Made by a program: the position numbers and the translations under genes
Notes under the pieces: model-generated
Told to the model about the DNA's origin: nothing
Database searches by the model: none
Seen by the model: only the letters and a program-made list of their open reading frames with translations
Shown: positions 19,551 to 61,899 of the stretch, in pieces
How the letters are laid out: each line of letters starts with the position of its first letter
How positions within the stretch are numbered: position 1 is the first letter of the stretch
NCBI RefSeq assembly: GCF_003073045.1
Contig: NC_037594.1
Location: 27,578,737-27,642,736, forward strand
Direction of reading: 5' to 3'
Length of the DNA stretch: 64,000 bases
Origin: Pomacea canaliculata
Taxonomy: Eukaryota > Mollusca > Gastropoda > Architaenioglossa > Ampullariidae

Positions 19551-21454
19551 TTAGTACGAGCCGGGCACCTTGCCGGAGCCACTCGTAGCAGTCGCACTGG
19601 CTCGAGCCCTGGCGCTTGCCGATGCGCCCAGTGGCAGCCCGAGGTTTCCTCCAGCGCCTGCTCCCCCAAGACCGTCAAGACCGTCGACCCTCGAGGATCC
19701 AGCATCATCCAGACCCAGCAGCCCACCGAGGTCAGCAGAAGGTCCGTCCAGGCCGGGCAAGCCTCCTCCCAGAGCGCCTTGGGTCCCAATGTTGCCACGC
19801 GCCAGGGCGCTAGCGAAGGCTTGGGCATCCGCCGAGGCTGATCCGAGTCCAGCACGCGCTCTGGAGCTCGCAGAGGCCATGGCCTGGGCCGCCGCTCTCG
19901 CGCCGTCGGCAGCCGCGTCCCGCACGACAACCGCCGCCCGGGCCATGGCGAAAGCGAAGGCGGAGGCCTGGGCACTCACCCGTGAAGCGGAGGCGCGAGC
20001 GATGGCACGCGCGCGGGCGAAGGCGGAGGCGGCAGCTCGGAAGGTGGCCTCGGTCCTGCGCAAGGTGCTGACGCCGGCGCGTGCGCGGGCAACGGCCGAG
20101 GCGTAGGCTTCCCGGGCGCCAGTGACGGCGGCCTGCGCCTCGGCGCGCGCCAGGGCGATGGCGGAGGTGGCAGACGACACTGCCCTAGACGAGGCCTGGG
20201 ACTGGGCTACGCCAGACGACTGCAGCGCCGCCAGCAGGGATGAAGCCGTGGCCTGGGCCTGAGCTTGGGCAGCTGCGTAGGCGGAACCGGCGGCTCGGAT
20301 TCTCTGGGTGGCGCTCGCAAAAGCTGAGGCAGATGCCGAGGCAAATGCTGAAGATGAAGATCCGCTTCCCGCGTTCCCTCCCTGACGAAAAAAGCGGGAA
20401 AAGGTCATTTTTTTACTTGTATCGTTTGGTGAACTACATTATTGCTTATCCATACGTGGAGCTTTCTACTTGAAAGCCATGTGGCGGGACTGACATGTTT
20501 CCAAAATAAATAAATAAAAATAATGGTGGGAGGGGAACAAAGCTACTGCGAAAATAATTTTAAAGAATTATTTACGTTCTGTTCCCTTTATAATTTTTAG
20601 GATTAAGAAGTGAAAGAGAAAATAGTAAAAGGAAAAAAGCCGACGCGCGTACGCATACACACACATACTCGTATGCGCAGATGACGTACCAACAGACTGG
20701 CGAGGGCTGAGGCCTGGGCGCTGGCGAAAGCGTCAGCACTGGCGGTTGGTGGCGCCACTGGGCCCCCTCCCACTCCTCCCAGCAAGGCGGAGTTAGCGGC
20801 GGCGTCAGATGAAGCAGAGCTGCTCGCGAAACCACGTGGCACGCCGCCTCTGATGATGCTGTCGAGCCATCCAATTCCCACGACACCGTCATCGCGATCA
20901 TCATCATCGTCGTCGTCGTCGTCGTTGATGTCATCCCCCCACTCGTATTCATCGCCGAGTTGTGGCGGGAAAACAGACGCATGAGAAACTTGTTTCAGAA
21001 AGAAAAATATCACAATTAGGCGCTTGAGATATGTAGACCAAAAAAAAAAAGAAAAAAAAAAGAAAGGTAGAGACTAAGGTTGTCTGTGAGATGGAAATAA
21101 TATTGGGAAGAAGAAGCAAAACTTAAACATAAAAGTAGATTTGTGTATGAGCACCACTTACATCTTGTAACTTTTACAGGAAGCTGGGGATGATTGAGAA
21201 AGACAACTGTAGAGGAGAGTTTTAGAAAAGTTTGAAGGAAAGTGTCCTGCACCCTGCACACACACTGGATCTTTTTCACACATCACCTAAAATATCCATG
21301 ATTCATGCACCAGAAACCTGTGTAAACTAAGGAATATGAATGTGAAGATGGTAGGCGATAAAAATTTGAGACTCATACAAGACAGCATACAAGGCTACTC
21401 ACGTTTCATGGCGCACAGCGCGTGAAGAAGGACGAGTAAAATAAGGACCTTCAT
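19551..21454 (-). CDS. Silk-like secreted protein, Ala/Ser-rich with Asp-rich N-terminal region (393 aa)
   Basis: Three coding exons: 21454-21403, 20988-20690 and 20381-19551, all phase-consistent; ATG is at the very start of the first, after a non-coding exon ending at 21763. Residues 1-15 are a signal peptide (MKVLILLVLLHALCA). A run of nine Asp follows near residues 32-40, after DEYEWGDDIN. The rest is Ala/Ser/Gly-rich: SAFASASASAFAS-type strings, AAAQAQAQATASS, long Ala-rich segments with Arg at intervals, then a Gly/Leu/Asp zone (GLDGLGGAGAGG) and an Ala/Ser/Arg end. The coding DNA is far GC-richer than its AT-rich surroundings. No catalytic domain is visible. Composition fits a structural silk or matrix protein, and the acidic run could bind calcium; a shell-, operculum- or capsule-matrix role is inference. 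I recognise no named family. Confidence 0.85.
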
Positions 21455-21762
21455 CTGAAACATAACGAGAAGGGTATCAGGGGGTACATTCATCCCCAGG
21501 GTACCATGACTACCTCTGAAATACAATAAGAAGCCTATCAAGGGTACATTCATAGAGTATTATAAATACGAGAAGTATAGCAGGGTACAATAAATAGGAG
21601 AAGTATAGCAGGGTACCATCTACAGCACCGCAAATACATCCGAAAGATGAGAAGGTTATAACCATGGATACATTTCAAGCACTCCGTAAGTACATTGAAC
21701 ACTAATTCTAAACAATTATCAATTCACAGGTAAGACATTCAGGAGCCAAAGTAAAATCTTAC

Positions 21763-21853
21763 CTTCGTATGCTCAGGTGCGAACTGTCCTCAGGTTCAGG
21801 AGATCTTCAAGACCCAGGTGAAGAGGATGACGAACTGAAGCCTCTTATATAGC
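21763..21853 (-). promoter_or_regulatory. TATA box and non-coding exon 1 of the silk-like gene
   Basis: The minus strand reads TATATAAGAGG at about 21851-21841, followed about 30 bp later by a likely start site. A non-coding exon ends CGAAG at 21763 with donor gtaaga. The next exon opens exactly at the initiator ATG (tttcag, then ATG, at 21454). A strong focused TATA promoter suits a highly expressed, tissue-specific secreted product. Confidence 0.75.
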
Positions 21854-22129
21854 AAAATCGCATCCTGCCGTACCTGGCACTCCAGGAAACTACAAGTTCG
21901 TTACCAGCCACAGGTGATAGGGATGCAGAGGGGAGGTAGTGGGGACACGGTGCTGTGCACAAAATACAAGCTCAACATCGCCATAAAGTGTCGTTAACAA
22001 CGGCTTTTACGGAAGCATCAGTCAGTAACCGCCGTTGTTCAGGCAAAGGCTTGGCCACAGCCGTCAATCAGAGATGAAAGAGAAAAATGAACGAGGAACA
22101 GTTGAGTGCAGATCAAGATTAAAAAAAAA

Positions 22130-25750: not shown

Positions 25751-26221
25751 GATTTGTTTTACCTACAGATAAATACAAGTGAGGTTTGGTATTACACACA
25801 AAAATCGTTTTCTAAAGACTATAGTAGTCTGGCTCTAAAAAACTTTGCAAAAAAGATTTCGTTACACTATTCCTTTTTGTCTTCTTATAGTTGGTTTAGT
25901 TTGTCTGCTGGCATAAAAACACAAGCCACAAGAAAGAAAGGAAAAAAAAAGTTTACGAAATTCGAGATTTCAATGATAGCGAACAAAAAACCCATCGCAT
26001 TCAAAAAAAAAAAAAAATAGCTAGACACGACCTATAAACAATTCATAAATACAGTCTGAAAAAATCGGTAACTATGGTGATGTAAAACCATTAATGCTAA
26101 TTTTAAACAGTATATAGGTACATTGTCTTTACAAGTCTGTGATATAAAATAATTCATTTTGAATCGTACAGTAATCGAAGAAAACATAGGCTGTAAAATA
26201 AAAGAGCATCCTCTTATCACC

Positions 26222-26345
26222 TGTTGTGAGCCAAGAATGAGATGTCCCAGCTCGTGGTTATCAGGTGTCCTCGCTGACCCGACTCTGGGAGGGTTTGGTG
26301 CTCACTCTGCCTCCGGACCATGGTCGTGAGCGCCTTTATGTGCAC
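26222..26345 (-). promoter_or_regulatory. Possible promoter and 5' UTR exon of the 73-aa gene
   Basis: On the minus strand a TATA-like CATAAAGG (about 26340-26330) precedes a GC-richer stretch ending ACAACAG with donor gtgata at 26221. This mirrors the promoter, non-coding exon 1 and coding exon layout of the silk-like gene. No other sign supports it. Confidence 0.3.
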
Positions 26346-27580
26346 AAACAGCCAGTGAACATCAAACTGGTTCACTGCAGTTCACGTGTTGTTTGTCCCG
26401 AAACTAATATAATTAACCATCAATAAATCACAAATCCCTTAAATCTCTCATTGACAAAATAAAATAAAATAGGAAAGTTTACGAAATTATCAGAAAAGCA
26501 GGCATTGATGAAGCAGCAGCTAACGCAGGACTTTAGTTTGTTAGAGAGCTGTGAGGACGGGTAATCCAGCAGAGGTAGTTCTACTCTGTATGGCCATCAC
26601 CACCATCACCACCCTGTGCCAACAGTCTGTGAGAAGGGAATATTTATTTCTTGCCTCAGGACCCTATGACCAAAGCCACTCTTGTTGATTCCTGTTCAAG
26701 GTAGATGGCGCGGAATGATGTTCAAGCGCTTTGTTTTCTGTATTCATCTTAGTCAAATAATTGATTTCCAGATGCTGTGTTATTACAACCTGTAAAGAGA
26801 TAATGTCAACAACGAAAAAAATCCAGTGTATGTATCGTGCGTGCTCAAGCCAAGTAATGCATCCTTCATTTCTTTTTTTGTTTTGTTTTGTTTGTGTTTA
26901 TACAGTCACAGTAGCAGACAAAGGAGGTTTCGGTCCTAACATCTTAACATGGCTGACGATTTTTCAATTAAGTTGCTGGCGGAACATTTATAGTAGCATC
27001 CCAATAGTTTGTTTAAATGGCATCATGAGAATGGATGTTTAGCACAATTTATGTATGCCGAGTAGGGTGTAAACCGAGTGCACAGCCCCCAAAGCACGTT
27101 TCTACATCAAGTTGAATGTTGTGATGGTGGTGGTGGTGGTGGTCAGTCCCTGGTGTGTACTGACAGTTGTCCTCGCTGTATAGTGTACATAGAACTATAC
27201 AACAGTGCATCTACACAGGCGCTTCACACAACAGTGCATTCAGTAAACTTGATGCTTCAGTGCACCGACACCGTGCCGCACGTGCAACACCCAAAACATC
27301 CATCAGTGTGATGCCGGCAGCTGTGTTGACACGAGTCAGCAGTGCACGCTATCATCTGATGACACATCGCTGCCAGCCTCTGCAAGTCCTCCCTCGGATG
27401 ATGTCACATGGTGATGGAAGGCGACCAAGCTTTTCCTGCTTCCCAAATAAACAGCGTCCTTTGTTTCCATTATTTGTGTACTCAAGGTGATGCATTGATG
27501 CTGTTCGGGACGATTCAGCCTGAAGTCGATAACATCGTGACGAATGGCAGAGAAACCACAAAAATATCTTGTTTGCGGTC
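26346..27580. other. Intergenic, no gene supported
   Basis: Between the secreted-protein group and the T-box 3' end. It contains a CATCACCAC-type trinucleotide run at about 26595 and a GGT run at about 27126 but no convincing exon. Confidence 0.5.
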
Positions 27581-27740
27581 ATTGGTTTATTGAAATAATG
27601 TCATACAAAGATACTTGATTATAGAACAATATACAGCAATCAGAATGTGAAGTTACCTTACTTGACAAATTCCGAGAAATATTTACATGAGCACTTCATA
27701 ATCATTGCAGGTAGTTTGTTATCAGGATTTATGAAGAGTG

Positions 27741-27746
27741 TTTATT
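27741..27746 (-). terminator. Polyadenylation signal of the tandem T-box gene
   Basis: AATAAA on the minus strand 77 bp after the stop at 27823. A second AATAAA lies at 27591-27586 and may be used for a longer 3' UTR. Confidence 0.65.
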
Positions 27747-27822
27747 CATGACAGACTAAGATACAGGACTAATTCTGTACAGTGGCAACATGGAATGTAT
27801 CAGGTAGCCTCACTTCAGTCCA

Positions 27823-30800
27823 TTATCTGTTTCCTTGACCCGTCTGTGAGGAAAGATCGAGGACTTTAGGGGACTCTGTAGGAGAAAGGGAGCTTAGGGA
27901 ACTCATGGAATAGGGGTAGTACAGGAATGGCAGAGGGTTGATGGCGGGCAAGGCAAGTCCATACGCCGCGTGCAAGGGTGAGCGAAACTGATGTAACAGC
28001 GACTGTAGAGGATATGACGTCATGGGCTGTACAGGGGATGATGGCGGCAGGCGATTGGTTGGCAGGCCCAGGTGCGCAGGATGGAGCTGTGGCATGGCAG
28101 GCATGCACACTGATCGAGAGAAGGAAAAAAATGTTACTTTCCTCGCACATCACACCGTACCACTGAACCCACTGAGCACAGGTACGTCACTGTACACCAA
28201 AGAGATTAAACACAAAATACCACTGATGACACTGAGCGCACGTCACAGTACACCGTACCACTGACAGCATGCACGTCACACACTGAGCTACACATGCAGT
28301 ACCACTGACGACACTGAGCACACGTCACATATTACACCGTACCACTGACAGCATGCACGTCACACTCAGCATACTGAGCAACACATGCAATACCACTGAC
28401 GACACAGCACACGTCACACATCACACCGTACTACTGACAACAGGCACGTCACTCAGTACACATGCAGTACCACTGACGACACAGCACACGTCACACATCA
28501 CACCGTACCACTGACAGCACTAAACGCGTGACATCACAAAGTACCACAGACGACAGTGATGACGCTGCGTCACGTGACATCTTACACAGGTTGTTCAAGC
28601 GATGAGTTGGCTCAGGTGTGCGGCTCATAAACGCAGGATTCCATGGCAACGTCCTGAGGTCAGGCGCCGCGAACTGCAGAGGGTAAGTCACCGGGTCTGG
28701 CAACCCTAGAGGGTCAGGGACATGAAAAGACTGTTGAACACAGAAGGTCCGTGCACGTGGAACCACTCCTCCCCCCCCACTATCCTCCGAGGTTTTTAAA
28801 TAATTATGCCAGCTGTTTTTTTTAATTAATCGCAATAAATGTATTTATACCAACTATAGTTTTATACCAACAACAATGAGAGCGCTGCACCCTTATGTTT
28901 ATATGTTTTTATGTTTATATAATAACTTTCATGTCATCAGCTGTATTTACATGTCCTAAGCAGGAAAACTTACTTTCTGGACATTCTTTCTTGACGGTAG
29001 TGCTGGTCAAGGTGCTGACCCTGCGCAGAAAATGTTGAGGTCAGGAATAGACATACTACTTATGTTCTCACAGCCAGGTCATAGGGAGGAACTGTCCAAA
29101 CATGTGATGACAGTCATAATGACAGACACAACCTCCTGCTGTTGCTTATACAAATATACTGAATGACATTTGTTGTAACAGGCAAAGTTTTTTTGTAGTG
29201 ACAATGCACAATACCAAGAGGGCAACACGACTAGACTCTCATATTACAACAAAAACAAACTCCAACTCTACATTCACCAAAGTAATCCAAGTGCCAAAAC
29301 AACAACATCAACACCAAACAATCTCACATCATTAAATCCACCTGCGGTGCAAACACCAATGGAATGAACAGTTGGAACAATATCTCTCCTCTGGTGGAGG
29401 TGTAAGTAGTGTTCACCATACCATCAGAGGTACATAGTGTATTCCTACCTTTTCTTGGCTTTCCGGACCTCCGGCTGGGGACTTGGGGCTTGAGAAGCAG
29501 CGATGAAGGTGGTTTCCGACAAGGGGAAGAACAGAAGGTCCCCGGAGCTGCCGAAACCACCGACAGCGACCTCCTCCTCCTCCCGCACCAGGATCTGCGG
29601 CTGGTAGCGGCGGTTGCGGAGCAGCTTCAGCTGGGAAAGAAGAAGAGATGACAAGGAATGATAACACTTTACACTACTTTAACTGTAGCAGAGCTTTTTT
29701 TTTTAAAAAAAAGTTCATATACTGGTTCTAGTCAGTACTTTGCATATTCCTCCCCTCTATCTCTCTCTCTATATATTTTTCAGCATATCTCTAACCTGTC
29801 CAGATAAAGGCTCACCGAAGAAGAATCATCCAGAGTCGAGTCTAGGGTCACCCGGACCTCGCTGAAGGCGATCCTGTCTTTCATCCACGCCAAGCCAGGC
29901 ATCGGAGAGAAGGGGTGCATATAGGGCTGCACGGTGGTAGGGGTTCGATGAAGGGCAAACACTGAGTTCAATGTCCCGCTTTGAATGTTGGAGAAAATAT
30001 CGTCTGCTGTTGTCAGGTTGAGCCACACTGAGTACATCCGGGCAGGGTCCAGACCACGAAGGGAAATGGTTATGACAGGGAACATGTGCCTGAAAAAGAC
30101 AGAACTTTATATCATTTTCTGGTGAAATTGTATTTAAAAACGTTTATTTCTTTTTTCGGGGGCTGGGATATTTCTAATTAGTCCGTGGAGGAAGAGACGA
30201 GAGAGAGAGAGAGGAAGACAAGGGAGGACAACAAACTAAAATAGAAAGAGAGAGTAAAAGAACAAGCAAGAGATGTACAATGTAACTGGCTTTGAAAATG
30301 CACGTACAGAGTACACACGTTCAATCCATCACTGCGATTCGTGTTCACTGTTCTCTCCAGGACATACACAAGGCGTCGCTCGCGCACACCACGTGTACAC
30401 GTGACCTGCAGTCAACACACAAACATCACGCAGAACGTGTAATCAATCAACCATTCATGCGTGCATGTGCATACACCATCATCATTTTACGGAACAGTGG
30501 ACTCAGACCAAGTTACCTGCCATCTTTCCCGATGCTGAGCTCCTGACCACGTGCCTGGAAGCTTTTCCACAGGCCGCAGTCGTGGAGGAGCAGCTGCACT
30601 CCATGGTCGAACTTCACCACGCAGTCATCTGGGAGGTCCTGCGAAATGACCAACAACAGATACTGAAATTGCTCGAATCCATCAAATTCTGCCTGACTAG
30701 AACTTTGCGGTTGTCATAAAATTCCTTTTGATTATAGTTTACAAATTTTATAAACCTCAGATTACAGGCCAAGAAGCCACTGGATTAAAAACATCACCAC

Positions 30801-33530
30801 CCACTCATCCTTGAATGAACTTGTGACAAGATTTTAAATTCCCAGATGTAAACTTTTCCATTTAACACACCTACACCCGATATAAGAGGTCAGGTTGCTG
30901 ATATCACAAGTCAGAACATAAATGCCTTTAGATGCCGTTGAGGTTACAATGGGACAACTTCCGGTGTTTGTTGGAGGGTTTGCCATGACCTGTCTTGATT
31001 CTGACCTCCTGTGCCCTGCTGAGTATGTAAATGTCTTGAATTTTTATTTTTATCTTTACAACTGGCCATACTTAAGACAAAACAGTTTGAAGGAAGAGAA
31101 AGATTACCAGATTACAAGATGACACTGGACTCTTGCACCACTCCATGTCCGAGGTTGTGGACGCAGGAAGTCCAGGCGACCGTTTGTTTGTTGACCTTTT
31201 GCGGGGGTTCGCTTTACGCATGGCTGGAGGTTTGAAGACATCTCTCTCAGTCTCTCCTGCAAGCGATAGTGGGGGCGACACTGTGGACGACTGGTCCAAA
31301 TGAGTGAACATGTCGCCCGCAATTGTCTTTCCATTGTTATTCTCAAGGTGTTGTGTCGACTCCTCGTCGCCTGCCTTGGACACCGATGATGGCGACTTCG
31401 ATGATGTCTTGTGAGGGTCAGTTTGCATTTTAAGTTCGCGATCTTCGACATCGCACGTATCATCATCGTCTTCATTCTTCACTTTTCTTCCCTGACTTCT
31501 GGACCATGAAGCCGGGGATTTTCTTTCTTCGGAATAACGGTCACTGTGCTGGAACCTGAACTGTGCGGTTGTTGTCATTGAAGGGGTCGAATCTCTGTCC
31601 TCGGAGTTTTCTGTCTGTTCTATCTGGGTTGAGTCGTAAGGTGGCGGACTGGACAGGCGGGTATCAGGGGTGCAGTCCTCAAGTTTGACAGCAGGAGTGT
31701 CAAGAACAGGGGACACAAGTGCCGTGGAGGAGAGTGTTTGAGGAGTAACCGTTGCCTTGGCTCGAGCTGTTTTGGTCGAGGATTTCGTGCCAGACGCAGA
31801 GCTGCTTTTATGTTTGGTGTCCTTCGATTTCGTGACATCTGAAACAAACGGTTTATAATCCTCATTTTGGGACGAGGTATGACATCTTTTTCTGTTATTA
31901 CTTACGGAATTACATTAGAACTTACGTAGGTTTCTAAATTGTAAACTACCAATACAAAGCAGCCGAATTGATAAGAGCAGTGAAACTAGGGATTCAGATA
32001 TTTTACACAGTAAGATTTCTCTAAACTACCTGATCGAGGTCCGTTTGTGTTGGCATCTTCATTCCTGAAACAAAAGGAAACAGATGCGAGGATGTTATTA
32101 TTAATGGCAGGTAAAATGATGTCCTACACGGAAATTAAATATTTTCTCTGTATTTAAGATGACAATGAGAGAGTGAGTGTGTCCTTACCCGGTGACGTGT
32201 GCGTACTTGAAGCCGTTAGCGAAAGGGTTGTGAGTGATCTTCATCCGGGTGATGTTCTCGTTCTGATACTGTGTGACGGCCACGAACACCGTCTCCGGAA
32301 GCGGAAACACGTACTGAACGTCACTGAGGTCTTCGCGCACGATGATCTGCACCATGTACTTGCGCATGGACTGCAGGACGATCTGGCGAACATCGTGCGA
32401 TGACACATCATCAGTCCTGCTTGTTGCTTCACATCTACATTTACTTGCTACTGTATCATAAACTTGACTAACCGCATTTTTAAATTGCATCTCTTTACCT
32501 GCACACAATATTTATCAGATATTTTTATGAAATTTTATTTCCTGGTCAAAACAAGAAATTCAGAGACAGAGAAGTTGGCGTTCTGTTTTGAAAACATGAA
32601 CACACACAACTCTTGCCCTTGTCAAACATTTTCACAGTAGACATTTAATTCAGCTTCAAACGGCGCAACTTACGTTCCCTTGCGAATGTTTGTTGTTGGT
32701 GATCTTGAGTTTGGCGAAGGACACCATCTCCTGGCACCAGAAGGAGCCGCGGTTGGGTGAGGCGGGATGGAGGTAGGTGGTACCCGGGATGGGTGCGGGA
32801 CCGGTGGGTGCGTCGGTCACGCTGACCCAGCGCCGCTGACAGAACTTGTACTGGCGGTTGTCGCACGGCACGACCTGCAGGTGCACCGAGTACAGCAGGG
32901 TGGGGCTCAGCCCCTCCAGAGTCACCATCACGAAGGGGAACATCCGTCTGGGCAAAAGGCAAAAGGTTAATTGTGAACCGCATAATCTGCTCTCGTATTA
33001 ATTTAATTGAAAAAAAGAAATCGAGACTGACAACACCTTCCCCCTCACACACACCAAAAACAAAAATGCAAACCAACTACTTAACATTTGTAAAGGCACA
33101 TCAGAGCAAACAAAGCAGGAACACTCTCACCCCTAAAAAAAAACGTGTGTCAAAGTTTTACACCTCGCATTGACAACTTGGTGAGACTTATGTTTATACT
33201 TCACACATAAATTTAGGAACTGGGAGGAGTGTATTATCCAGATTTTGGGTAAATATTATCCTGCATCGTGTTCAGTTAATTCATTCAAAACAAAATTGCA
33301 TTGTGTAGACACAGTCAAAGTTTTTGACAACTCACTAAAAACCTCGAGTATTCGGAAGATGTGAAAATTTCTGACCTGCCAGCCTTGGTGATGATCATTT
33401 CTGTGCCCTCCTGATGAAAGGAATGCCATAGCGCAGCGTCCAGCAACCGCAGCTTCACTGAACCGTCAAACTTCTCGACGACGGTGATGTTCTCTTGTGA
33501 CGTCACGGTTGGACGTTGTTCTTCTTCCAT
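27823..33530 (-). CDS. T-box transcription factor with two tandem T-box domains (806 aa)
   Basis: Eleven exons join without a phase error: 33530-33376, 32947-32674, 32382-32189, 32064-32030, 31838-31108, 30638-30517, 30089-29816, 29630-29449, 29020-28974, 28705-28586, 28109-27823. T-box 1 (about residues 18-205) has LWHSFHQEGTEMIITKAGRR, MFPFVMVTLEGLSP, YLHPASPNRG, SFAKLKITNN and FVAVTQYQNENITRMKITHN, then NPFAN. A 250-residue Ser/Thr/Lys-rich linker carries a basic NLS-like RKANPRKRSTNKR and two psi-K-x-E sites (VKLE, VKNE). T-box 2 (about 464-655) has LWKSFQARGQELSIGKDGR, MFPVITISLRGLDPARMYSV, YMHPFSP and FFPLSETTFIAAS. The tail ends with VLDLS (794-798), a CtBP-type motif. ATG follows an acceptor (cacccag) at 33541, so a 5' UTR exon lies upstream. 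T-box factors bind DNA and regulate transcription; I could not assign a subfamily. The one uncertain join is donor CTG/gtaatc at 31108 to the acceptor at 30638. Confidence 0.85.
28145..28525. repeat. Minisatellite in T-box intron 10, about 60-bp unit x 5-6
   Basis: Reordered copies of 'cgtaccactgacagcatgca', 'gcacacgtcacacatcacac' and 'actgacgacactgagcacac' fill most of the intron between the last two coding exons. Each copy carries one or two CACGTCAC elements (a CRE/E-box-like half-palindrome). Confidence 0.85.
29449..30638 (-). other. Exon block encoding the second, divergent T-box
   Basis: Exons 30638-30517, 30089-29816 and 29630-29449. The middle exon is 274 bp, exactly the length and phase of the matching exon of T-box 1 (32947-32674). 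The frame upstream of 30638 has a stop and no ATG before the domain starts, so the block cannot begin a separate protein without another exon. The segment that in T-boxes reads VTAYQN...IT.LKI..NPFA is replaced by ASQAPSPQPEVRKAKKR. Confidence 0.8.
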
Positions 33531-36359
33531 TATGTCCCCTGGGTGAAAGAATGATTTAATCGGTTATAGCATCTAAACACTCCTTTCGATTGTGTGAACG
33601 ACTTTGTGACACAAAAAAATTGAAAATATATTTCTTAATAGATAAAGACAGCGCAATAGTACAGAAAAAAATTTAAGTTGTCGCAAAGAAACCGATGGTT
33701 CTTGTAGGAGAGTGAAATAAAAAGGTGGCAGAATAACATATTTACTAAGATATATCCGGAACACACAGATGGAACAGATTGCTCGCATTCACTTAATAAT
33801 AAGACAAGTGCCTAAAGAGAACATTGTTTCTTGTGAAGTCGAAACCCAAAGTTGTTGGGTTTGGTTTTTTTTTTTCGGTGAGAGCTGGGAAGAGGAAGAG
33901 ACAGCTTGAAAGACGGAGAACCATCGTCACCCACCTTGACTTGTTTCAACACAAAACTCGTCTGCTGCGGCGCACTTTGATGCCGTCTGTTGTTATCTGA
34001 GAAAGGCCTGAGGGTGGAGTTTATTCGTTAAAAAAAAAAAAGGTCAGAACTCGGGCTGACCGCTTGTTTCCGCCGCCAGCTCTTTACAACAGGAGTCGGT
34101 GCTTGAGAACCAAACCGGAGAGTTTTCGGAAGCAACAGGTGTGTACAGGTGTGTTATCACGCGCCGGGTCATGTCTGGCTACGGTGTCTACAAGAACTCG
34201 ACTTGAAGCATGAGACCTTCTGCCGGAGCGTTGGCAGACGCTGGTGGTGTTATCGCTAACAGCTGGCTATCGGTGTTTGAATCCTGAAGACGAGACCCTG
34301 TAGTCTTTTTGTCACTTTGTGCTGATAAGCCTCCATTAACTGTTATGTACGAATGTATTTACATGGTGTGTAAATATGTTTTTACACGACATAAATAAAT
34401 GTTTAACAAACAGCTGTGATAGAGTTCTCTTCGACAATGTCCATGTAAAGAAAGTCGCCCCAGTACCATCATTGAAAACAAAACAAGAGAAGGATTTTGA
34501 AGATAAACCCAAGATAGTAAATAAACGTAAACCACCCTCTCCCACGAAAGTCAATTTTAAAAAAAAAAAAAAAAAACAAAAAAAAAAACCAGCATGAAAG
34601 ATGGAAGGTAAACAAAGTGCAGAAAAAAGTAAAATGAAGACTTGAAAAAATAGGTTGTCGAACAAATGAGATGAAGCTACAGAAATAAAGACAGTGAGAA
34701 CCCGCCACGGTCTACACTCTACAGGATGCGATAACATTACATCAGCCTGTCCAGTGACCTCATCGGTGACGAGGGTTGTACCCTAGGGCGGGTGTGACAA
34801 AGACTGGGTGGTCACTGCAAGTAGCCCGTCACCCGGGTGACGACAGATCAGAGACCGCCACCCGCTTTGTAAGTAAGGATTTGTCTCCCCCATGTGATGC
34901 CATGCGGTGTGTACCATCCACAGGAGTGAGTGAGGAAGACTATGGATGACTTGAAACTCATTCTGTATGTTTACAGATGATGTGACCAGTTTATGTCGCA
35001 CTGCATCTCCCAGAGAATCTCACTACCTTGAGGACTGCGATCAATGGAAAATAATTTATAAAATAAAATTTTAAAAAAATGTGAAGAGAAAACGAGAAGT
35101 CTTTCAGTGTTCCCCGAGAGGTAGACATTTCAGCTCAGCCGCCATCATACATAAGTTCAAAGGGATCTTACATCACCGAGCACACTTGCTCTCGTTACTA
35201 ATTTCGCGATAGAGGAAGGAGAACAAAAGTGGGGAGAGGGAAAAGAATTAAAATATAAAGGGCGAAAGACGAAGAATAAGAAAGAAGACCAGCTTTTGAG
35301 GAAAAGTTGAGTATTTTCTCAGCTCTCGTCTTAAATGTAAACACTTTTGAATGCACGCTCCGATATAACCAAGCTGTTTACACTAAACAAACCTTGAGTT
35401 TCGTTCAGTGCAACATTTAAGGATAAAATCAACACAGATAAACATCATTTCATCAACTGTACACGATTTTAAAACCAAAATTTTCATTTAACTCAACAGT
35501 GAACAAAAATTTAAATACCTGGACACACGTCCTTCTCATCAGCGTCCATGCTCTAACACGTTGTACATTGAGAACCTCCAACACCACCAACCACCTCGCA
35601 ACACCACGAACTCAGACAGGAAGGCCGGACACCCGCTTCGCTCCACTGGTCAACCAGGTGTTAATGACGTCCAGTCAGGGAAGGACGTCCGGCGGGTGTG
35701 GATGCCCCCGGGTGTTTCGTGACCCCATTACGTAGTCTTCAGGGTGACAACTCAACACCTGCTAACGGTCACACGTTGGCACTCTGTTCACAAGGTCCTG
35801 ACCACCTTGTACTTCACGTGCGCGAACTTTTCAAAGGTTTTAACAAATGTTAATGTCTACAGTCAAAACACCAACATCACCCTTGTGTCTGATTTCCTCC
35901 TGATACTACCTGGTCTGAATATTAAGACACAAATATTTGCTAGCTAACAATTTCTTTATTGGATACACGACCAGATACTGTTTTTAACTTTATTTTTAGT
36001 GTTTTCTAGACAGACTTATCTTCTGGTGCACAAGAAACGAAGATATTTTATAATCGAAATTTCATTTAGTTTGGTATAAAAAGATGTTGAAATCTTTTTC
36101 TCGTGCTTCCCAGACAGGCTTAAAGTGTTGTTGTTGCTGGTGGTGGTGGAGTGTGAAAGCTTGGGTCTCTCTCTCTCACCCACACACATTTACACACAGT
36201 GAGCTGGGCCCCTGACTTCGCTTACAGTCTGTGTCTGTCATGGATTGCACGGTGAACAAATGGGTGGGAGGTACCCGTAATTACGCAACGCTGATCGCGC
36301 ATCACTGGCGACAGTGTGACACGCAGGACATGTGGAGTTCCCCATGTGAAAAATCCCTG

Positions 36360-42005: not shown

Positions 42006-45000
42006 TTAAGTAGGTAGGTGTAGCTTCTCAACGCGCGTGCGCCTCACCACGTGCATGTGCAACCATCTGAGAAGGTCAATCAAGTCAAGAAGGACTAAGA
42101 TAAGCAAAGAGAGGATCATGATGATAACAGCCACCGCCCCAACAGCTACAGCAGAATGTCGTCCGTCCGGCGCGCTGGTTTTCTTCATGACCTGCTGGGC
42201 GAGGTCAGCGTGAGACATCTTCAACTCGTCCTCGATGGTCTGCCGGAGCTGGTCCAGGTAGTTGGCATCTTGACTGGTGTTCGGCTGCAGCAACTTGCGC
42301 TGGCAGCCGCACGGACACATCGGGGATCTCGGAGGAGTGGTAGAAGGAGGGCGTCTGGTCGTGGTGGTGATGCTACCGGCGGTCACCTGATGTTCCTTCG
42401 AGGAAGGTGACTCGGTCTTGTTCGACATGGTCGACAGCGAAGCCTGATCCAGAGTTGGTGTTTGCCTTAGAGCCTGACCTGAATCAGGGTCATGACTGGG
42501 GTCAGCAGAGGTTTCTGGAAAGTAGGTGACAGACGCCGGATGGAGGAGAGGGTAGTGTGTATCTAGCGATGAGTCCATACGAGTCGCTTCTACAGCATCT
42601 GATACGTCAGCTGTTGTCACGTGTTCACCCGTTACAACAGTGCTAGTGTAGAGTAGAGGATGATTGTTCCCCCCGCCAGATGACAGGGTGGTTGTCGTTG
42701 GCATGTTGTTTACTATAATCGTCGGGAAGATGCTGGATGTAGGCATGGTGTTGACTTCAACCAAACTGACCCGAGATTTATCTGATTCCACGAGCACAGG
42801 AATGAGTTTGGTGATGGTGTCCAACAACTGCGCCGTTTGGTTAGACAACGATAGCTGACTGTATTCTTCAGACGACGACCGTAGGTGGGGGACTTGCGAG
42901 GCGCTTGGTAACGGCAACAAAGATATTTTATCCACATTCCCTGTCACGTGTGTCGTTTGACTCACTGCGAGGCTCAAGTCTGAGACAAAAAGTGTTCTAT
43001 CGTTCTCTTCGCTCCGTGTCACTGACACTGATGGTATGCCAGACGTATGTGTCACAGGCTGCAGAGAACTGGAAACATTAGATATGGCGAGAGAAGATAA
43101 GTCTGTAGAATTGTGTGAGGCAGATGAATTAGAGTCTACCACTCGACTTGCACTTGGTATGGTTGACGAGAGCATGTCTTTACTGTTGACCACATCTCTT
43201 ACTGTGTTTTCTCCATGATCGGAGAGTGTTACTTTAGTGGCATCCGCCATGGCAGGGGAAGTGACGTAGTTGAGTCCCTCGGTTGTTGACACAAAACTTC
43301 GTGGTGGTGTATTCACTGGCTCCGAGAACGAGTCGACGGACCTTTCTACATTTGTTTCCTTTGCTTCAGCAGAACTCGGCAAAACCGTTGTCGAGGTGAC
43401 ATGTGAGAAATCCACCATGGTAGCTGACGAAGGGTAACTGTAGTCGTCGTTAGAAGAAACTACATCGAATCCTTGCTGAACTGTTGATACGATGATGTCA
43501 ACGACGGCATCACCACCAGAGTTCGTAGCCTCGGAAACGTAGGGTGAAGTGAGAATGGAGGAGTGTGGAGGGTGATGAAGTCCTTGAGTAAGTGAGTCAA
43601 AGTGTGTCGCGAGCACATCAGATGACAGGACTACCACAGTGACCAGAAAGTCAATAGGTGTCGACTCAAAGTCACGTGATAGTGTTGATACAGGTGAGGG
43701 AAAGTCTTGGGCGGTCGTCGGTGAGCTGCTTGTCGATGTTGTGATGACTGCGAGGAGTTGAGGACTCGACTGGGATGTCTCCATGGTTTCTTCCGGCATT
43801 GAAGTTATGACGTTTACTTGTACTGTTGTAGTTGTTGCTGTTGTAGTTGTTGCTGTTGTAGTTGTTGCTGTTGTAGTTGCTGTTGCGCCATAGTTTGTGA
43901 CAACAGACAGGTTTGTAAGCTCTGATGCGATTGGTTGTGACTCAGTGTACATCTTTGACACTGGAATGGCGTTTGTCACGGAATCGAGTTTGAGTAACTC
44001 ATTAGATGTGACAGGACTGACACCTAGCACTGACTCTGTGACGACTGGCTCAAGATTTGTCACTCCATCAGCACTCAGCACTGAGTTTCTTGTAACTAAT
44101 TCATGATCGGACACTGACTCTGTTACAAAGTGTTCGAGACTTATCACAGGAATGTTGTTTGTCATTACAGGGTCTGTCACAAAATGTTCTAGTGTCACAG
44201 GACTGACAGTCAGGATTGTGTCTGATGTAACTAATTCCATATTTGACAGAGACTTTGTTACGAGATATTCAGGAGGAGTGACAGTTGGTACTGGTGCTGT
44301 AACGAAATGATCGCCACTAGTGACAGTTGGCTCTGACTCTCTTGTGACTGATTTAAGACACGAACTTCCCTCGTGACATGTCACTGACACCTCAGGCCTT
44401 GGTGCTACAGTAGGTGTGAGTGTGTAGAGGTCTGTCATGTCAGCCATGTCACTTGGCAGCTTCGACACGCTCGTTACATCCACTAAGTTCGTAGCTGACT
44501 CACTACGTTGTTGGTCTGCCACCATCACTGACACACTGACTCTTACGCCTGACATCGCTGCTGACATTTCAATGTTTGTCAGAGATCCTTCATTTCCTGT
44601 TGTGGTTGCAGTTGAGTGAAACACTGATGTAGTTGTTGAGACTGTCGCTGTGGTTTGGTCAGCGAATTCCGCTAAAGACACAGCAGACACGAGGTCTGCC
44701 ATCGTCGTCGTCGTCGTCGTCGTCGTCGTCATCCCGTCTGTAGGTGACTCTGGTGGTGTCACATCCATGACACTCATCGGTGCTGGCATGACAGTATCAC
44801 CGCTCGTCGCCTTCACGCTAACCAACGTCGACGTGGCAGTGCTCCTCGTGACCTCTGTGAACTCCACGCCGGAGCTAAAGTGCAGCGCCTCGTTATCGCT
44901 GCGTGACGTAAGCGGTGTTGTCTCCGCCGCAGTATCTCTTCCTGACAGCACGGCGCGGGTCAGTCTCGGGTCATCGCCTGTCTCTGTCGTCGTAGAGGAG

Positions 45001-48000
45001 TTTTCTGCAGAAGGTTGCGTGCTGCTGTCGTTGACAGATGACTGTGGGCTTTTTACTGTGGAGATGGTGTCTAGCGCTAAGGGAAAGGGAGCTGTGCTCG
45101 TTTGACCTCCTGCATCACCCCACGCGACCCCTGAAAAGGTGATGTCAACGAGGGGAGATAAGCTGCTGTCTTCGCTGGTGTCATCCGGAGTCGTCTCCCT
45201 TGTGTTCTGTGTTTGTGTTGATCCTGCAGCGTTCACGACACTGTCATCAGGAGTTGACGCGTTCTCTGGTGTAGTCGGTGAAGTGGATGATGTCTGAACA
45301 CTGGGTTCGTTCGTCGTGGGTTTTCCTGTAGCTCAGAAAATGCGCGGAAAGAAGAGAAAGAGAGAACAACAAATTTTTTTTTTCCTTTGTCATTCTGCCT
45401 GTCTTTCTAATTCTACTTGTCAGATTAATATTTTTTTACCTGCCTGTTTATCTGTACCACATTCTCGTAGGAAGAAGAATAATGTTGAAAATTTGGGTAA
45501 TAATTATCTCTACACCACTCTGTCTCATCACACATGAAGATTAAAAAAAGAAACCAACAATAAAATGTTAGGCACATCACATGATACTGAAGCCAGAGTG
45601 TAGTCCCTCAGAAATTTTCCAGGTTAAGGAGGGCATTTGGCAGACGAACATTTGAGTAAGTTTGAGAAGTTTTCTTTGTTACCATCACTTGCCTGTTACA
45701 TACCTGACAATATATACACAAAACAATCACGAAATTTTCTCGCTCGAGTTCACTTTTTTGTGAAAACACAGAAGTTGACGTACTCACCTGGGTCGAAAGT
45801 TCCAGTGTACACCTGTACTTCACACAGAGTCAGAGCTTCTAATGCACTAACTGGAGCCTTGACCACTCGCACGTACTGGCCGCACAATGGCTGACCACAG
45901 ACCAGCGTCTGGACCGCGGGGAACACGTCATCATGCTGGACACACCTCGTGTAAGCAATGCTAGACGAGCTTCTCCGACCTACCAGGACGTCGATATTTT
46001 TCAGACGAAATGCTGTAGGACATAAAAGAAGTGAATTGACTGAACAGACAAAACGATCTGAAAATGGCATAAAAATTGAGTTAATACACTGGAAGAAAAT
46101 GATGACTCAAACGTCCTATGTTTTGGAACACGTCCGTTAGTCAATCAGTTCATCTAGAGAATCTGAAAAGAAACTCCTCCTCCTCCTCAATAAGTTGTGT
46201 GTGTCCATGTGTCGGCATTATTTACACTGGTCACCAGCTTACCACAACAATCTACTCTGTTGTAGATTCTCAGTTTTGCCACAGGCAAGGCGAGAGCTAG
46301 GTCCACTTGCCACCAGAACTGTGTGTTAGTGGTTTCACTGGTGTGGGAACAAGAGCCGTGAGTGTAGCTGCCGTCGGTGTTGTTGTCAACGGCTAGCGAA
46401 GCAGGACCACTCCGGGCAGTGGAAATCTGTGTTGTGCTCTTGAACACAGCTTCGTTGGTTTCACCTGAAACAAGAAAACAAATCACTGCTCATGAACGTG
46501 GAATTTAACTGCTAAGCTACGTGATGGTTGAATGGAGTCTCTGACTTTAAAATAAACAAAGAATTGCAGGCAATGGCGACAGAAGTCTTAGAAATGGTAA
46601 ATATGATAAAAAAAAATATTCGTGAGAACCGACTGGACAACCGACTGCATTCCAAGAGAAAAAAAAAAGACTTCTTTTATTTTTACCACCACCAAAGTAA
46701 TTGCAATCATCCCCTCCACCAACGCCGCCGCCACCACCACCACCAGCAGCATCTAACAATAAATTCTGAGATACTGCACCCTTTGAGAGCGAGAGGCATC
46801 CAAAAATCTGGACTTCACATATCTCCACAGGAGCCGCCGTTTGGTGGACGAGACGCAGGTACCTGGCGTGTGACACACTTGGCGACTGACAGTTATAAGA
46901 CAAACTGTTGTTCCTGCCGGTCGGCTGGTATGTGACGTAACAGTCCTTGGAGAAGTTGGCCACGTCACAGCACACTGTTCCCACATCCAGCAGTAATGGA
47001 ACTTGCGAAACTGCAAAGTAGAAACATACATTAGACAGATGCTTTGAAGACCAGCCAGACCTTCCAGTCATACCCAGGAGCCGACATAGACATAACATTG
47101 TCACAACGAGCCTGAAGTTGAAGTTCAAAGTCTTTATTTGCCGGATGGCACCAACAGCGAACTGTGTAAACTTACCGCAGATTTATGAGTTACTTTAAAA
47201 AAAAAAAAACCATTGACGAAGAAAGAAGGAAGAGAAAGCGAGAGAAAAAACCGTACTGTCGCTTCATGATATACATTTCTCATAAAAAATGGACACTCAC
47301 TGTTTTCTTTGGCGCCAAGGTAGACGAGGACGTGGTGGAGGAAGTAGTCTGTGCCCATGTCCAAGGTCCACTGATAATTCGTCTGAGCATTGACCTCTAT
47401 GCACGTGTGGTCACAGTCGCCGTCCAGTACGAGAGAAAGGGAATTGTTTATCTCTCCGGGGAATACCAGAAGATCTGAGCATCCTGAGACGATCGCAACG
47501 CGATCCACGTCTGCAAAGGGGAAAAAAGAAATGGAGGAACATTTATTTTCTTCAAGCATTGAATAACCCCGAGAGCTGAGCTGTTGGAACTTTTGGATTC
47601 CAGTTGGAATGAAGAAAACATTTCTAAATTTTTATTAAAATTTGAGGGGGAATAAAGTAACTTTTCAGTTTGCTAGTCTGTGTAGCAGGCTTTTCCCAGT
47701 TTGATTTCTGCCTCTAAGTTCTAACTCTTCCAGCTATGATTTAATATCAATCTACATTTAGCTTGAATAGAGGGACAAGCATTCATACAATGTGTCAGTA
47801 CAGCGAAATAGAATAATACTTGTACTTGGTGTCTCTTCCCTAACTTTACAGTTTGACAGCTCGTATTCGCCAACTGGAACATAAAGCTTGAGATGAAGGG
47901 GGAGACGTAAATTGCCGATGCCATCCGCTTCCCACACACACACAAAAAAAAAACATTATCCAAAAGATCAAAAGCCTGCTCATGAATACCGTTAATGCTT

Positions 48001-57100: not shown

Positions 57101-60100
57101 TTTGTTCCCACCTGTCATACTTTCAGTTTCCGTTAGAGGAGGAGGGGTAAGTTCTAGATCCCTCCAGGATGCCGTGGTTGCCTCTACATACATGGTCAGT
57201 ACGCACCGGCCCTTCAACAACAAACATCTGACCTTAATGTACTATCAACACAAACATCTTACCTTAATGTACTATCAACACAAACATCTTACCTTAATGT
57301 ACTATCAACACAAACATCTTACCTTAATGTACTATCAACACAAACATCTTACCTTAATGTGTTATTCCCTCTGAATTTGAAAGTTGACGTACACATTGAC
57401 TACTTGAGGGTAATCATCTTTTATTTTTCTCTTAATATCCTCAATCCTTCTGTTTTCTACCCACTATTTCTCTCCATCAAGCAAAAATTGATTAGCCTCG
57501 CATGAAAAGACCGTGAGGTGGAATGTAGGAAGCTGATAGTTTGCAACACTTTGCAGGTTTGATTATCCCTGGTTGTTGTTATCATCAGAAAACATTATAA
57601 TGACTTCAAGCAACAACCTGGAGCTGACATTCAGGTAAATAAAAGGATTGGATGGGTGAGCAAAGCTAAATTAGGTCTGCACCTTTCTCTTGTCACAGGA
57701 CCCCAAACAGTACATAGCTAAGTATGAAGTAGCTGTGATCACCTGGTGTCAAAGGCTTTTTTTTCTAGACTTAGCATGATTAGTTCATACATTTAGCACC
57801 TTTGGGCTACCTACGCAAACAGTGAAACCCTCCAACACAGGTACAGCTGATGATAGCATTAGTGCTGCGCCATAGAAAGTAGTCACTAAAGTTGTAATAT
57901 AAAAATATTTTTATGAAATAAAAGCCTGACACTTGAAGATCAGATTTAAGTATAACTATTATTTTAACCCTAAGAAAAATACAATAATTAAAAACAAAAC
58001 TAAGAATAAAGCAGGAGCTGTTAAAAAATCTACAAGATTATGAGTACAGCACTGTTGATAAAATAATATTAATGTTGCTTACAGCCAAAGTAAATGTGTA
58101 TGTAAATGATGCTAGCAACAAAACTAGTCATGATGAATTGATGAGGCAGTGAGAATTGCAGCACAGTAAATGTGTTAAATGATACTAGCAACAACACTAG
58201 TCATGATGAACTGATGAGGCAGTGAGAACTGCAGCACCCACATGTTAGCAGAGCAAGTCAGACTATAAAATCAACATACAGAGCGAATAATGCAGATGGC
58301 ATTGGCCTCCCTGCTGTTGTCGGCCACAATGTCATTGATCTTGAAGTAGGCCTGGTAGCACAGGAATGAGCGATTCCTCAGGCGTTCAATGGGCCAGTAC
58401 TTCATAAAGTGAATGTTCCTGAAGAAAAATGCATCACTGGTTATCTTCCTTTTCCAACCTATGCTTTATCTGTATTTTATGTTCTGTGTGTGTGAGCGCT
58501 CTCTCGCGTGTATGCATATGTCCATAATAAATTTGAACCTACTTTTCCATGGAGAGCGTTGATCCCTAGCTTTTTTTTTTTTTTTTGAGCTAGATTTATG
58601 TGAGGGTTGTGCCTATCTCCTCTTGAATTACTTTCTCTAACCTTCTATAAAGTACTCAGTCTCGACAGCCAGGTCGACTGGGGAAAGACTGAGCCACACG
58701 GGTATGGAACCGCAAGCCTCTCGTTTAACGTCTCGACTATTCGCTTTAAAGAAAACGTGAAGAAAACGAATGGGTCTGACTACGCCAGTTCTTGTACATG
58801 TCATAAAACTTCCTCCTTAACTTGAATTCTAACCTCATAAGTGCACTCCACTACAAAACAGAAGGTAGATGGTTCAAGGCCTGACCGGACCTGTGGCAGG
58901 AATATTCTTAGTTCCTTCTGCTCTACAGGACTGGGTATCAGAGAGGGTGAGTAGCAATAGAAACTTGGGTTTCACCTTTCACATCCAGACATGGTGAATC
59001 ACATAGATATATAAATAAACATAAAGTTTCTTACCGAAGAAAATCCAGGTGCTCATTGTGGTTGCGTGTCTTCATTCTTTTGCAGAAGATAAACAAGTAA
59101 TCTGCTTTACTGAGAGAGATCAGATGCAACGTTTGTCTGGACATCACGGTGAAGCTTCTTTTCGTTTCTTGCTCTAACTCTGATTCCTGCAAAGTGCATG
59201 GAGTGAGAAACTGTGTGGTCAGAGGAGAGCCTCTCTGTCAAACAATTTACACTGGCTTAAACATTCTCATTCATTTCCGAGTTTAACAAGGTTTTGTTTA
59301 AAAAAAAACATCCTAGAAGAGACAGCTTTCTCAGCCTGGAATGAAATGAGTCTGTCCAAAACTGACCAGAATATTGCACAGGCTGGATTTGAGATTTGGG
59401 TTAGGGTTTGAATTTTGAGATTAGCTTAGAGGAGACTAAGTAGATAAAACAGAGACAGTTAGTAGATAAAACAGAGACAGTTAGTTGAAGGCTGGTGACA
59501 AGAGGTGACACTGTGCTTACAAGATTTTGTAGGAGTACTTCTTTTGTCCATGGGAAAGTAACAAACAATGTCTGGGTCGTGTATGTTGGAAATATTTATT
59601 TTAATGTTTATTTTTAAATTTTACTTGTTATGCTACTAGCGGCTTGAAAAATAAATTTAAAAAACTATTACATTGAGAAAATGCTAGCTAGGTCAGTCTA
59701 GATGGTAGTTTATCATAAGAGATGAAAGGCGTGTGGCGGCCGGCATCTCATTTTCTCGCATTCACTTTAAACTCTTGCCTGTGTTTTGCATGACAGTTTG
59801 ATCTAAACCTCGAGAGTACTTCAAGCTGACAGTTGCTAGGCGAATGGTTCAATTATTTGACAAATATTATAACGGGTTGGGAGCAAGGGAACTGACTGTT
59901 CTTTTCCCTTCCAAGTTCCCCAGAGGAAAGTTGGAGGTGTGGAAAGGAGAAAGAAATAAATATGCACATCTTGATCTCCCTTCGACATCGCAAAATTTGT
60001 CCATGCTTTGGTATACCCCAAAAGTCATTCCTTGACTCAAAACGTCCACAGTCATCTTGCAGGGGCCATCTTCCTGTACCGTCTTCCGCACCAGACCTGG

Positions 60101-61899
60101 GTTGGACAAAAACAGCAAACTGCTTGGAAACAAAAGACATACTCTCACTGGTTACAGTCTTCCAACTAGAATTTTGTGTGTGTGTGTGTGTGTGAGAGAG
60201 AAAGATTCCCTTGTCCTGTACAGAAATCCACTGCTTTATTCCTACCTTGGCCGCTGATCACCAAATACCACTTTTGGGCAACATGACCTTCGCGGATGAG
60301 AACACGTCCCGGCGGCAGCCTGCAAGAGATGAGAAAACTGAAATCTGTATTTGAGGATGTAATGAAATAAATATACTGATCATTTATACTATCTTTCAAG
60401 TTTTTATAGTTGCAGCCTAAATATGTTGTATTTTACAACCGCAGTAAAAAGAGACTTTCTCCACTTCTTTTAGGCACAAAGAAGGCCATCTATTATTCCA
60501 GTGGGATAAAAACACCTGGGGGCCGTTTTGAGACTTACGCAATAAAATGTCCACGAAGGACGATATTTTTCTGAATGTCCAGCGGATACATCCGAAAGCT
60601 GTCGAAGAACTGCAGATTGCACAGCACCTGAAACAGATCGTGGTGTACATGACCATGACAGTCTTCAGTCTCGAGACGACTGACATTTTGGAAGGCTACG
60701 GCATCATGCATCAATTTAAGGAGGCAGACAAATATTACAGAGCTATAATTTCCAAAACGTAATGTTGTTTACTTGTTTACCTCATATTGCATTGCTCTTA
60801 CAGACAGTTGTTAAAAGTAACACACAAGCACACAAGTATTTCCGAGACTGGATTTTTCTGCCGTCTCATGTTCAGTTAGTTTAAATGATGACGAGTGTGA
60901 AGTCGCTGTGTTTCTGCACTTTCTATGTTGTGACCTTTGCCCCCGGTAACCCTTACCAAGGAGCATTCCTCTTGTGTCCTCTCAGACGGCGGTAGCAACA
61001 TGATGGCCTGCGCTTTCAGGGTCAAGGTGGCCTGCAATAATATGAGTGCCTCTGTAGTCACTCAATAATAACAAACCAGCTCTTGCAATGGTATCTGCAC
61101 ATTCACGCACACACAGTTACACATGCATATGTATACAGATACACAAACAAGTAAGAAAAGTTAATAATAGAGTACGCTTATTTGTTTAGAGGCGAGCGTG
61201 ATACTCAGTGTACGAAAGACTGAAAACAAACTGACTGATGGCACTTTCAGGACTTCAGGAAGGACACATGTCAAACAATTATCAATATCGACAAAGATTA
61301 GCGGATTAATCTCTTCTCAGATTTCTGGTCCTGCACAGCGCCCTCATCAAGGGAACCCAGACACATCACGGCAGCAAAACTAGGACGCACAGCATGTAAG
61401 GCAGAATGTCCACCCCTGTCATCACTTCACCACATCATGGATGCCCAACACTTGGAAGACTCGTGCCTCTGGATTGACCCCCAAACCCATCATCACCGAC
61501 ACTGAATTTTGTTGTGATGTCATGGTCTCCATTGTCATGGTCATCACTGGCCTACGATGGACGAACCATCTAGAGGTTTTCTTTGTTTGACCAGTGCAGT
61601 CTATTAGGTCTCTGTCGGGTTTGCGGTCTGTGTGAATGTTATTATTTGTGCATTTCTTGACAGGACGATTCCGTGTGACGTTTCCTTTTGTACATTGTAG
61701 TGATCGTAGATGGCTGCTCATCGTCAGACACCCCGTTATCTTAGTGAACTCTGACCTCTTTCACATTGCTTGCTAGACTCTTCTTGGGTTTCCCAACTTT
61801 CTTGTAAACTTGGTCTTCTTGGTACACAAGGTCGGTAAATGTCTTCAAGTTCAACTCAATCTCCAGCGACCTGCACACAACCATCGACTAAAGAGTGAG

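Follow-up and report, generated by a model that had tools for sequence, protein, structure and literature searches.

By the usual description, a T-box factor has a single DNA-reading domain accompanied by a regulatory tail and, to our knowledge, there is normally one T-box per protein. The locus described here, which is read on the minus strand of a 64-kb stretch of DNA (the window, to which all position numbers refer), appears to depart from that layout in presenting two T-box matches in one frame. The question that it raises is whether the frame encodes one protein with two DNA-binding domains, one protein in which the second domain has taken on a different character, or two neighbouring factors.

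Exon structure and domain content

The original prediction had read eleven exons without a phase error, and both the exon count and the positions proved right when the gene was rebuilt. The exons extend over 27823-33538 on the minus strand and comprise 807 codons, stop included, for 806 residues, with no internal stop between the ATG at 33530 and the terminal stop codon that ends at 27823; GT-AG is present at every junction, and the phases agree throughout (Table 1). The exons that follow E1 and E6, namely E2 and E7, both begin at phase 2. The order that had been described, in which a T-box is followed by a linker of approximately 250 residues, a second T-box match and a Ser/Pro-rich tail, likewise lies in one frame, with a Pfam T-box match in both blocks.

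Table 1. Features of the gene, with positions in the window.
Feature	Position	Strand	Length (nt)	Remarks
E1	33376..33538	-		acceptor at 33538, ATG at 33530; encodes the N-terminus and the beginning of T-box 1; 3' end GGCAG/gtcaga
E2	32674..32947	-	274	core of T-box 1
E3	32189..32382	-	194	C-terminal part of T-box 1; contains YQNENITRMKITHNPFANGFK
E4	32030..32064	-	35	short, after T-box 1; exits at phase 1
E5	31108..31838	-	731	linker; basic cluster RKANPRKRSTNKR, PPPY, VKLE, VKNE
In-frame ATG (M451) within E5	31144..31146	-		gacATGg; possible block-2-only start
E5 read-through beyond donor to TAA stop	31072..31107	-		possible T-box-1-only end
AATAAA	31043..31048	-		first base 24 nt beyond the read-through stop
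E6	30517..30638	-	122	phase-0 acceptor; encodes the beginning of T-box 2; 3' end GGCAG/gtaact
E7	29816..30089	-	274	core of T-box 2
E8	29449..29630	-	182	end of T-box 2; similarity to FIAASQ, then APSPQPEVRKAKKR
E9	28974..29020	-	47	short, after T-box 2; exits at phase 1, like E4
E10	28586..28705	-		tail; donor TGT/gtaaga, lowest score of the ten (-0.61)
E11	27823..28109	-		Pro/Ser/Leu-rich tail; VLDLSS near the end; stop TAA
AATAAA	27586..27591	-		approximately 230 nt beyond the final stop; TTTTTGTGG comes next (seen by eye)

Since E1 starts at an acceptor and the frame is open upstream of the ATG, the N-terminus may be longer than given. A scan between 40000 and 33560 returned a possible upstream start exon (MDADEKDVCP, 35519-35549, minus strand; donor CAG/gtattt, phase 1, donor score 1.91) in a phase that E1 would accept; it was set aside as one of 16 candidates scoring at least 1. 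At the other end, the gene likely finishes at the last AATAAA of Table 1, a second one lying at 27746. The intron between E10 and E11 contains a minisatellite (28218-28519, period 77 nt, 3.7 copies). No Rfam match was found at gathering thresholds over 26000-36000, and comparison of the linker (E5) with the tail (E9-E11) by blastp gave no match at E ≤10.

Both blocks exceeded the Pfam T-box (PF00907) cut-off of 26 bits. In block 1, residues 29-202 match the 182-position profile from 3 to 181 (E 1.5e-56, 191.6 bits); in block 2, residues 18-177 match it from 3 to 158 (E 2.3e-23, 83.5 bits). Each block also matched 14 distinct sequences among solved-structure chains, with TBX5, Brachyury/T, TBX21, TBX1 and TBX3 matched by both. 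T-box 1 resembles the canonical factors, with an identity of 46% to TBX5, 45% to 1xbr T protein (which we take to be that of Xenopus) and 41% to TBX3, and it retains the DNA-contact landmarks AGRRMFP and NPFANGF, including the first Arg of GRRMFP and both Phe of NPFxxxF; its end reads NPFANGFK where TBX5 and TBX3 have NPFAKGFR. The N-terminal T-box is canonical and would be expected to recognise a T-box site. A search with the T-box profile over the 2165 ORFs of at least 20 residues in the window placed six above the inclusion threshold, three per block and all of them exons, and thus revealed no third T-box block. A candidate third T-box at 21749-21982 (tblastn, E 0.04) was rejected, as it spans stops and is absent from the profile listing.

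Other open stretches were noted on the minus strand elsewhere in the window. In the region 19554-21454, a signal-peptide-like first exon (MKVLILLVLLHALCAMK, ATG at 21454) is accompanied by a short, open and Asp-rich stretch near 21000-20690. Positions 19554-20438 form a silk-like ORF rich in Ala, Ser and Gln (69% G+C versus 40.6% for the window), which has no Pfam match when taken alone; the region may encode a secreted matrix or silk-like protein. A single open frame of 1108 residues (42009-45332) is Ser/Thr-rich in its N-terminal part and has no Pfam match, while a 165-residue frame (47137-47631) has three weak Pfam matches below cut-off that may be due to chance, one of them to a galactose-binding F5/8 type C-like domain (E 0.068). 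A weak FERM_C match at 59856-60257 is also below cut-off (E 0.0024, 18.7 bits versus 23).

The junction between the two blocks

The donor at 31108 (CTG/gtaatc, phase 0) and the acceptor at 30638 (also phase 0), through which the two blocks would be joined, are as originally described. Of the 41 GTs between 31838 and 31072, none but that at 31108 scores above zero as a donor, and it stands in the required phase 0. The resulting gap between E5 and E6 (469 nt) is of normal intron size for this gene, the nine other introns measuring 124-476 nt. The score of donor 31108 (1.62) is the second lowest of the ten, with no G at +5, and approximately 5% of the 3890 minus-strand GTs outscore it (95th percentile), so that such a site also arises by chance. 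Scores were derived from general consensus frequencies as opposed to training on this animal, and give the accepted E10 donor a negative value (Table 1).

The related claim, that block 2 could hardly be a gene of its own, was borne out in part. There is no ATG directly upstream of the block, the frame before 30638 being open back to 30713 and free of Met codons. The claim was overstated, however, because the last of five in-frame Met codons in E5, which has G at -3 and +4, lies 13 codons ahead of donor 31108 and could use it, so that a block-2-only product might be made from a promoter of its own. Two neighbouring or overlapping units could feasibly be read from this region, one encoding a T-box-1 factor that ends at the 31072 stop and the other a separate block-2 factor that starts inside E5 (ATG at 31146, MEWCKSPVSSCNL) or on an unseen exon, and that uses donor 31108 or another. 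The E5 ATG and the weakness of donor 31108 are consistent with this arrangement, as is the AATAAA at 31048, although that hexamer is present in 33% of 2000 random minus-strand stretches of 412 nt, and no clear GU-rich stretch was seen by eye after it as far as 31000. Moreover, for two units to exist, a 3' end, a promoter and a start would all have to fit into a few hundred bases or lie in a coding exon, and any mRNA that uses 31108 stays in frame with block 1. A scan for a start exon for E6 covered 31072-30660 plus the E5 Met codons. Within 31072-30660 it returned five phase-0 ATG-to-donor pairs, from two ATGs, all of them with negative donor scores (-2.79 at best), and hence no usable start exon. 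For comparison, 21% of 300 random stretches of this size contain an ATG-donor pair scoring at least 2. The existence of two units is considered unlikely.

The exon anatomy is common to the two blocks. E2 and E7 are of equal length and have the same phases, and the introns fall in the same places, inside GRR/GRH and before IVLQ/LKLL. The combined lengths of E3 and E4 and of E8 and E9 are also equal (229 nt), which may be a coincidence because E8 lacks the end of the T-box. One gene is the better reading compared with separate genes, and we infer a single mRNA from which, it seems likely, one protein with one full and one truncated T-box is made.

A single gene could nevertheless give rise to isoforms. 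Joining E4 to E10 would yield a single-T-box protein and inclusion of E5-E9 the double form, while retention of intron 5 would yield a T-box-1-only form. Such isoforms are conceivable given that the E4-E10 join is open, in frame and encodes 354 residues, and that the introns flanking E5-E9 are both of phase 1. Set against this, flanking introns often share a phase by chance, and equal flanking phases would be expected anyway from duplication of a module. Isoforms of this kind are doubtful on present evidence, although they are compatible with the preferred reading of one gene encoding a double protein, and the probabilities assigned to the two overlap.

State and origin of the second T-box

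The description of two tandem T-box domains stands insofar as one continuous frame contains two T-box matches. As a claim of two DNA-binding domains it is unsupported, because the match on block 2 stops at profile position 158 of 182, before the DNA-reading helices, and block 2 is thus not a complete domain with those C-terminal helices; the absence of this segment had been missed by the original prediction. In the alignment, similarity of T-box 2 ends at FIAASQ, in the place of FIAVTA in T protein, and the place of the segment YQN..IT.LKI..NPFAK.F is taken by APSPQPEVRKAKKR. The missing end was not found on a small exon elsewhere, as the C-terminal 33 residues of T-box 1, compared with the window by tblastn, match E3 alone, and neither tblastn nor the profile search over ORFs located any exon in the window that could supply the YQN...NPFAKGFR segment. 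Identity of T-box 2 is 34% with both T-box 1 and 1xbr T protein, 31% with TBX5 and 28% with TBX3. Judged by its profile match, it is a real but degenerate T-box.

The likely consequence for DNA binding can be gauged from published studies. In human brachyury, DNA contacts are made by two loops and two C-terminal helices, the final helix entering the minor groove with F213 and F217, and R69 contacting guanine (PMC11828899); in a second study, T-box DNA reading is attributed to helix 3 and 3-10 helix C (PMC4434323). When the 1xbr domain is numbered from F213, which assumes equal length of both proteins, R69 corresponds to the first Arg of GRRMFP. T-box 2 keeps this Arg (as GRHMFP) but is without both Phe and both C-terminal helices. 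A brachyury construct of residues 41-211, which is without the last helix, is described as having crystallised with nearly the same structure (PMC11828899), and a shortened T-box core can therefore be stable; by alignment, T-box 2 similarity stops approximately 14 residues short of the end of that construct. Block 2 is best seen as a pseudo-T-box, and a T-box followed by a pseudo-T-box appears a better reading than two DNA-binding domains.

Loss of the C-terminal part, together with a branch length of 2.7 compared with 0.66 for T-box 1 in the tree described below, could also mean that the T-box-1 gene is complete in itself and that block 2 is a pseudogene copy in decay behind it. Block 2 nevertheless comprises six open exons with GT-AG junctions and retains 34% identity to T-box 1. 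Its 343 codons contain no stop where composition alone, with homology not counted, predicts approximately 11 (P(none) of about 2e-5), and chance is not a credible explanation of the open frame. Third-position G+C stands at 0.72 for T-box 2 and 0.79 for T-box 1, compared with 0.52 for the linker and 0.61 for the tail. An open frame with third-position G+C near that of T-box 1, despite 34% identity, suggests that T-box 2 is under selection, and a pseudogene is regarded as very improbable.

The proposal that the second T-box arose by internal duplication gained a measure of support from a tree (LG+G4) of five sequences, three of them reference domains, which joined T-boxes 1 and 2 with an SH-aLRT of 82.9 and a bootstrap of 77. 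This support is modest, and the AU test left two alternative trees unrejected (0.19 and 0.23); duplication of T-box 1 is accordingly a likely, but unproven, origin of T-box 2. Across 159 columns, 11 residues are exclusive to the pair of T-boxes 1 and 2, and nearly as many (9) to T-box 2 and T protein; when T-box 2 is paired with TBX5 or TBX3, the count falls to 2 or 1, respectively. The intron places common to both blocks may be ancient features of T-box genes instead of marks of a recent duplication. No relative was found in viral, bacterial and archaeal contigs scanned with the T-box 1 domain (192 residues), which is uninformative on animals; one stretch in viral_contigs and nine in genome_contigs matched a pattern, and none of them encodes a relative.

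Comparison with known factors and proposed function

The layout is unusual. No protein with two T-boxes was apparent in titles or the starts of abstracts among the matches listed in a search of the open literature, a body of work outside which most subscription journals fall; several of these matches dealt with gene counts, duplicated genes, TBX5 mutants or other subjects. Canonical T-box factors such as TBX5, TBX3 and Brachyury/T share with T-box 1 the GRRMFP and NPFxxGF motifs (41-46% identity), but normally have one T-box, whereas here a second, shortened T-box follows in the same frame. MGA, which has a T-box plus a bHLHZip, is similar in that its T-box is joined by another conserved domain, and differs in that the second domain is T-box-like here. 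The nearest parallel seen is with the 2DBD-NRs, animal nuclear receptors with a doubled DNA-binding domain that are reported from molluscs and other phyla (PMC10497141). Their fold is unrelated, however, the spacer between the paired domains measures 17-22 residues in most members of NRA and NRB (PMC10497141) as opposed to approximately 255 here, and the second domain in the present case is without its DNA-reading part. The nematode-specific TBX-33, TBX-39 and TBX-40 are comparable as divergent T-boxes with altered DNA-contact residues, a variable region shortened by a deletion, or an insertion; loss of the whole C-terminal part or a second T-box is not described for them in the parts of the source covered (PMC4434323).

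A probable explanation of the locus as a whole is that one gene encodes one regulator, composed of T-box 1, a pseudo-T-box 2 and a tail, that was formed by duplication. A T-box module (E1-E4) would have been duplicated in tandem to give E6-E9, with the second copy fused into the frame and then diverging rapidly, and a linker of approximately 255 residues (E4-E5) would connect the two. T-box 1 would set the target by binding DNA. T-box 2, having lost the two C-terminal DNA-reading helices, may retain the beta-sandwich core and serve as a protein-protein module, whether as a dimer or cofactor surface or as a regulator of T-box 1, with the Pro/Ser-rich tail acting as the effector. The linker and tail may further carry short regulatory motifs, which is what we take the basic cluster, PPPY, VKxE and VLDLSS to be, the last of these being presumably CtBP-like. 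A more elaborate version, in which the second copy is a selected pseudo-DNA-binding domain carried on a skippable phase-1 cassette (E5-E9) of a double T-box regulator, is rather improbable.

If that version were true, splicing of E5-E9 would switch the gene between an ordinary T-box factor and one with a built-in, T-box-shaped interaction module. If stable, a T-box core without its DNA-reading part would have been kept for another task, for example dimerisation or cofactor binding. The double protein would, if true, parallel the two-DBD nuclear receptors, and would provide a route by which developmental regulators may gain interaction modules, via tandem duplication, fusion and then loss of the recognition helices.
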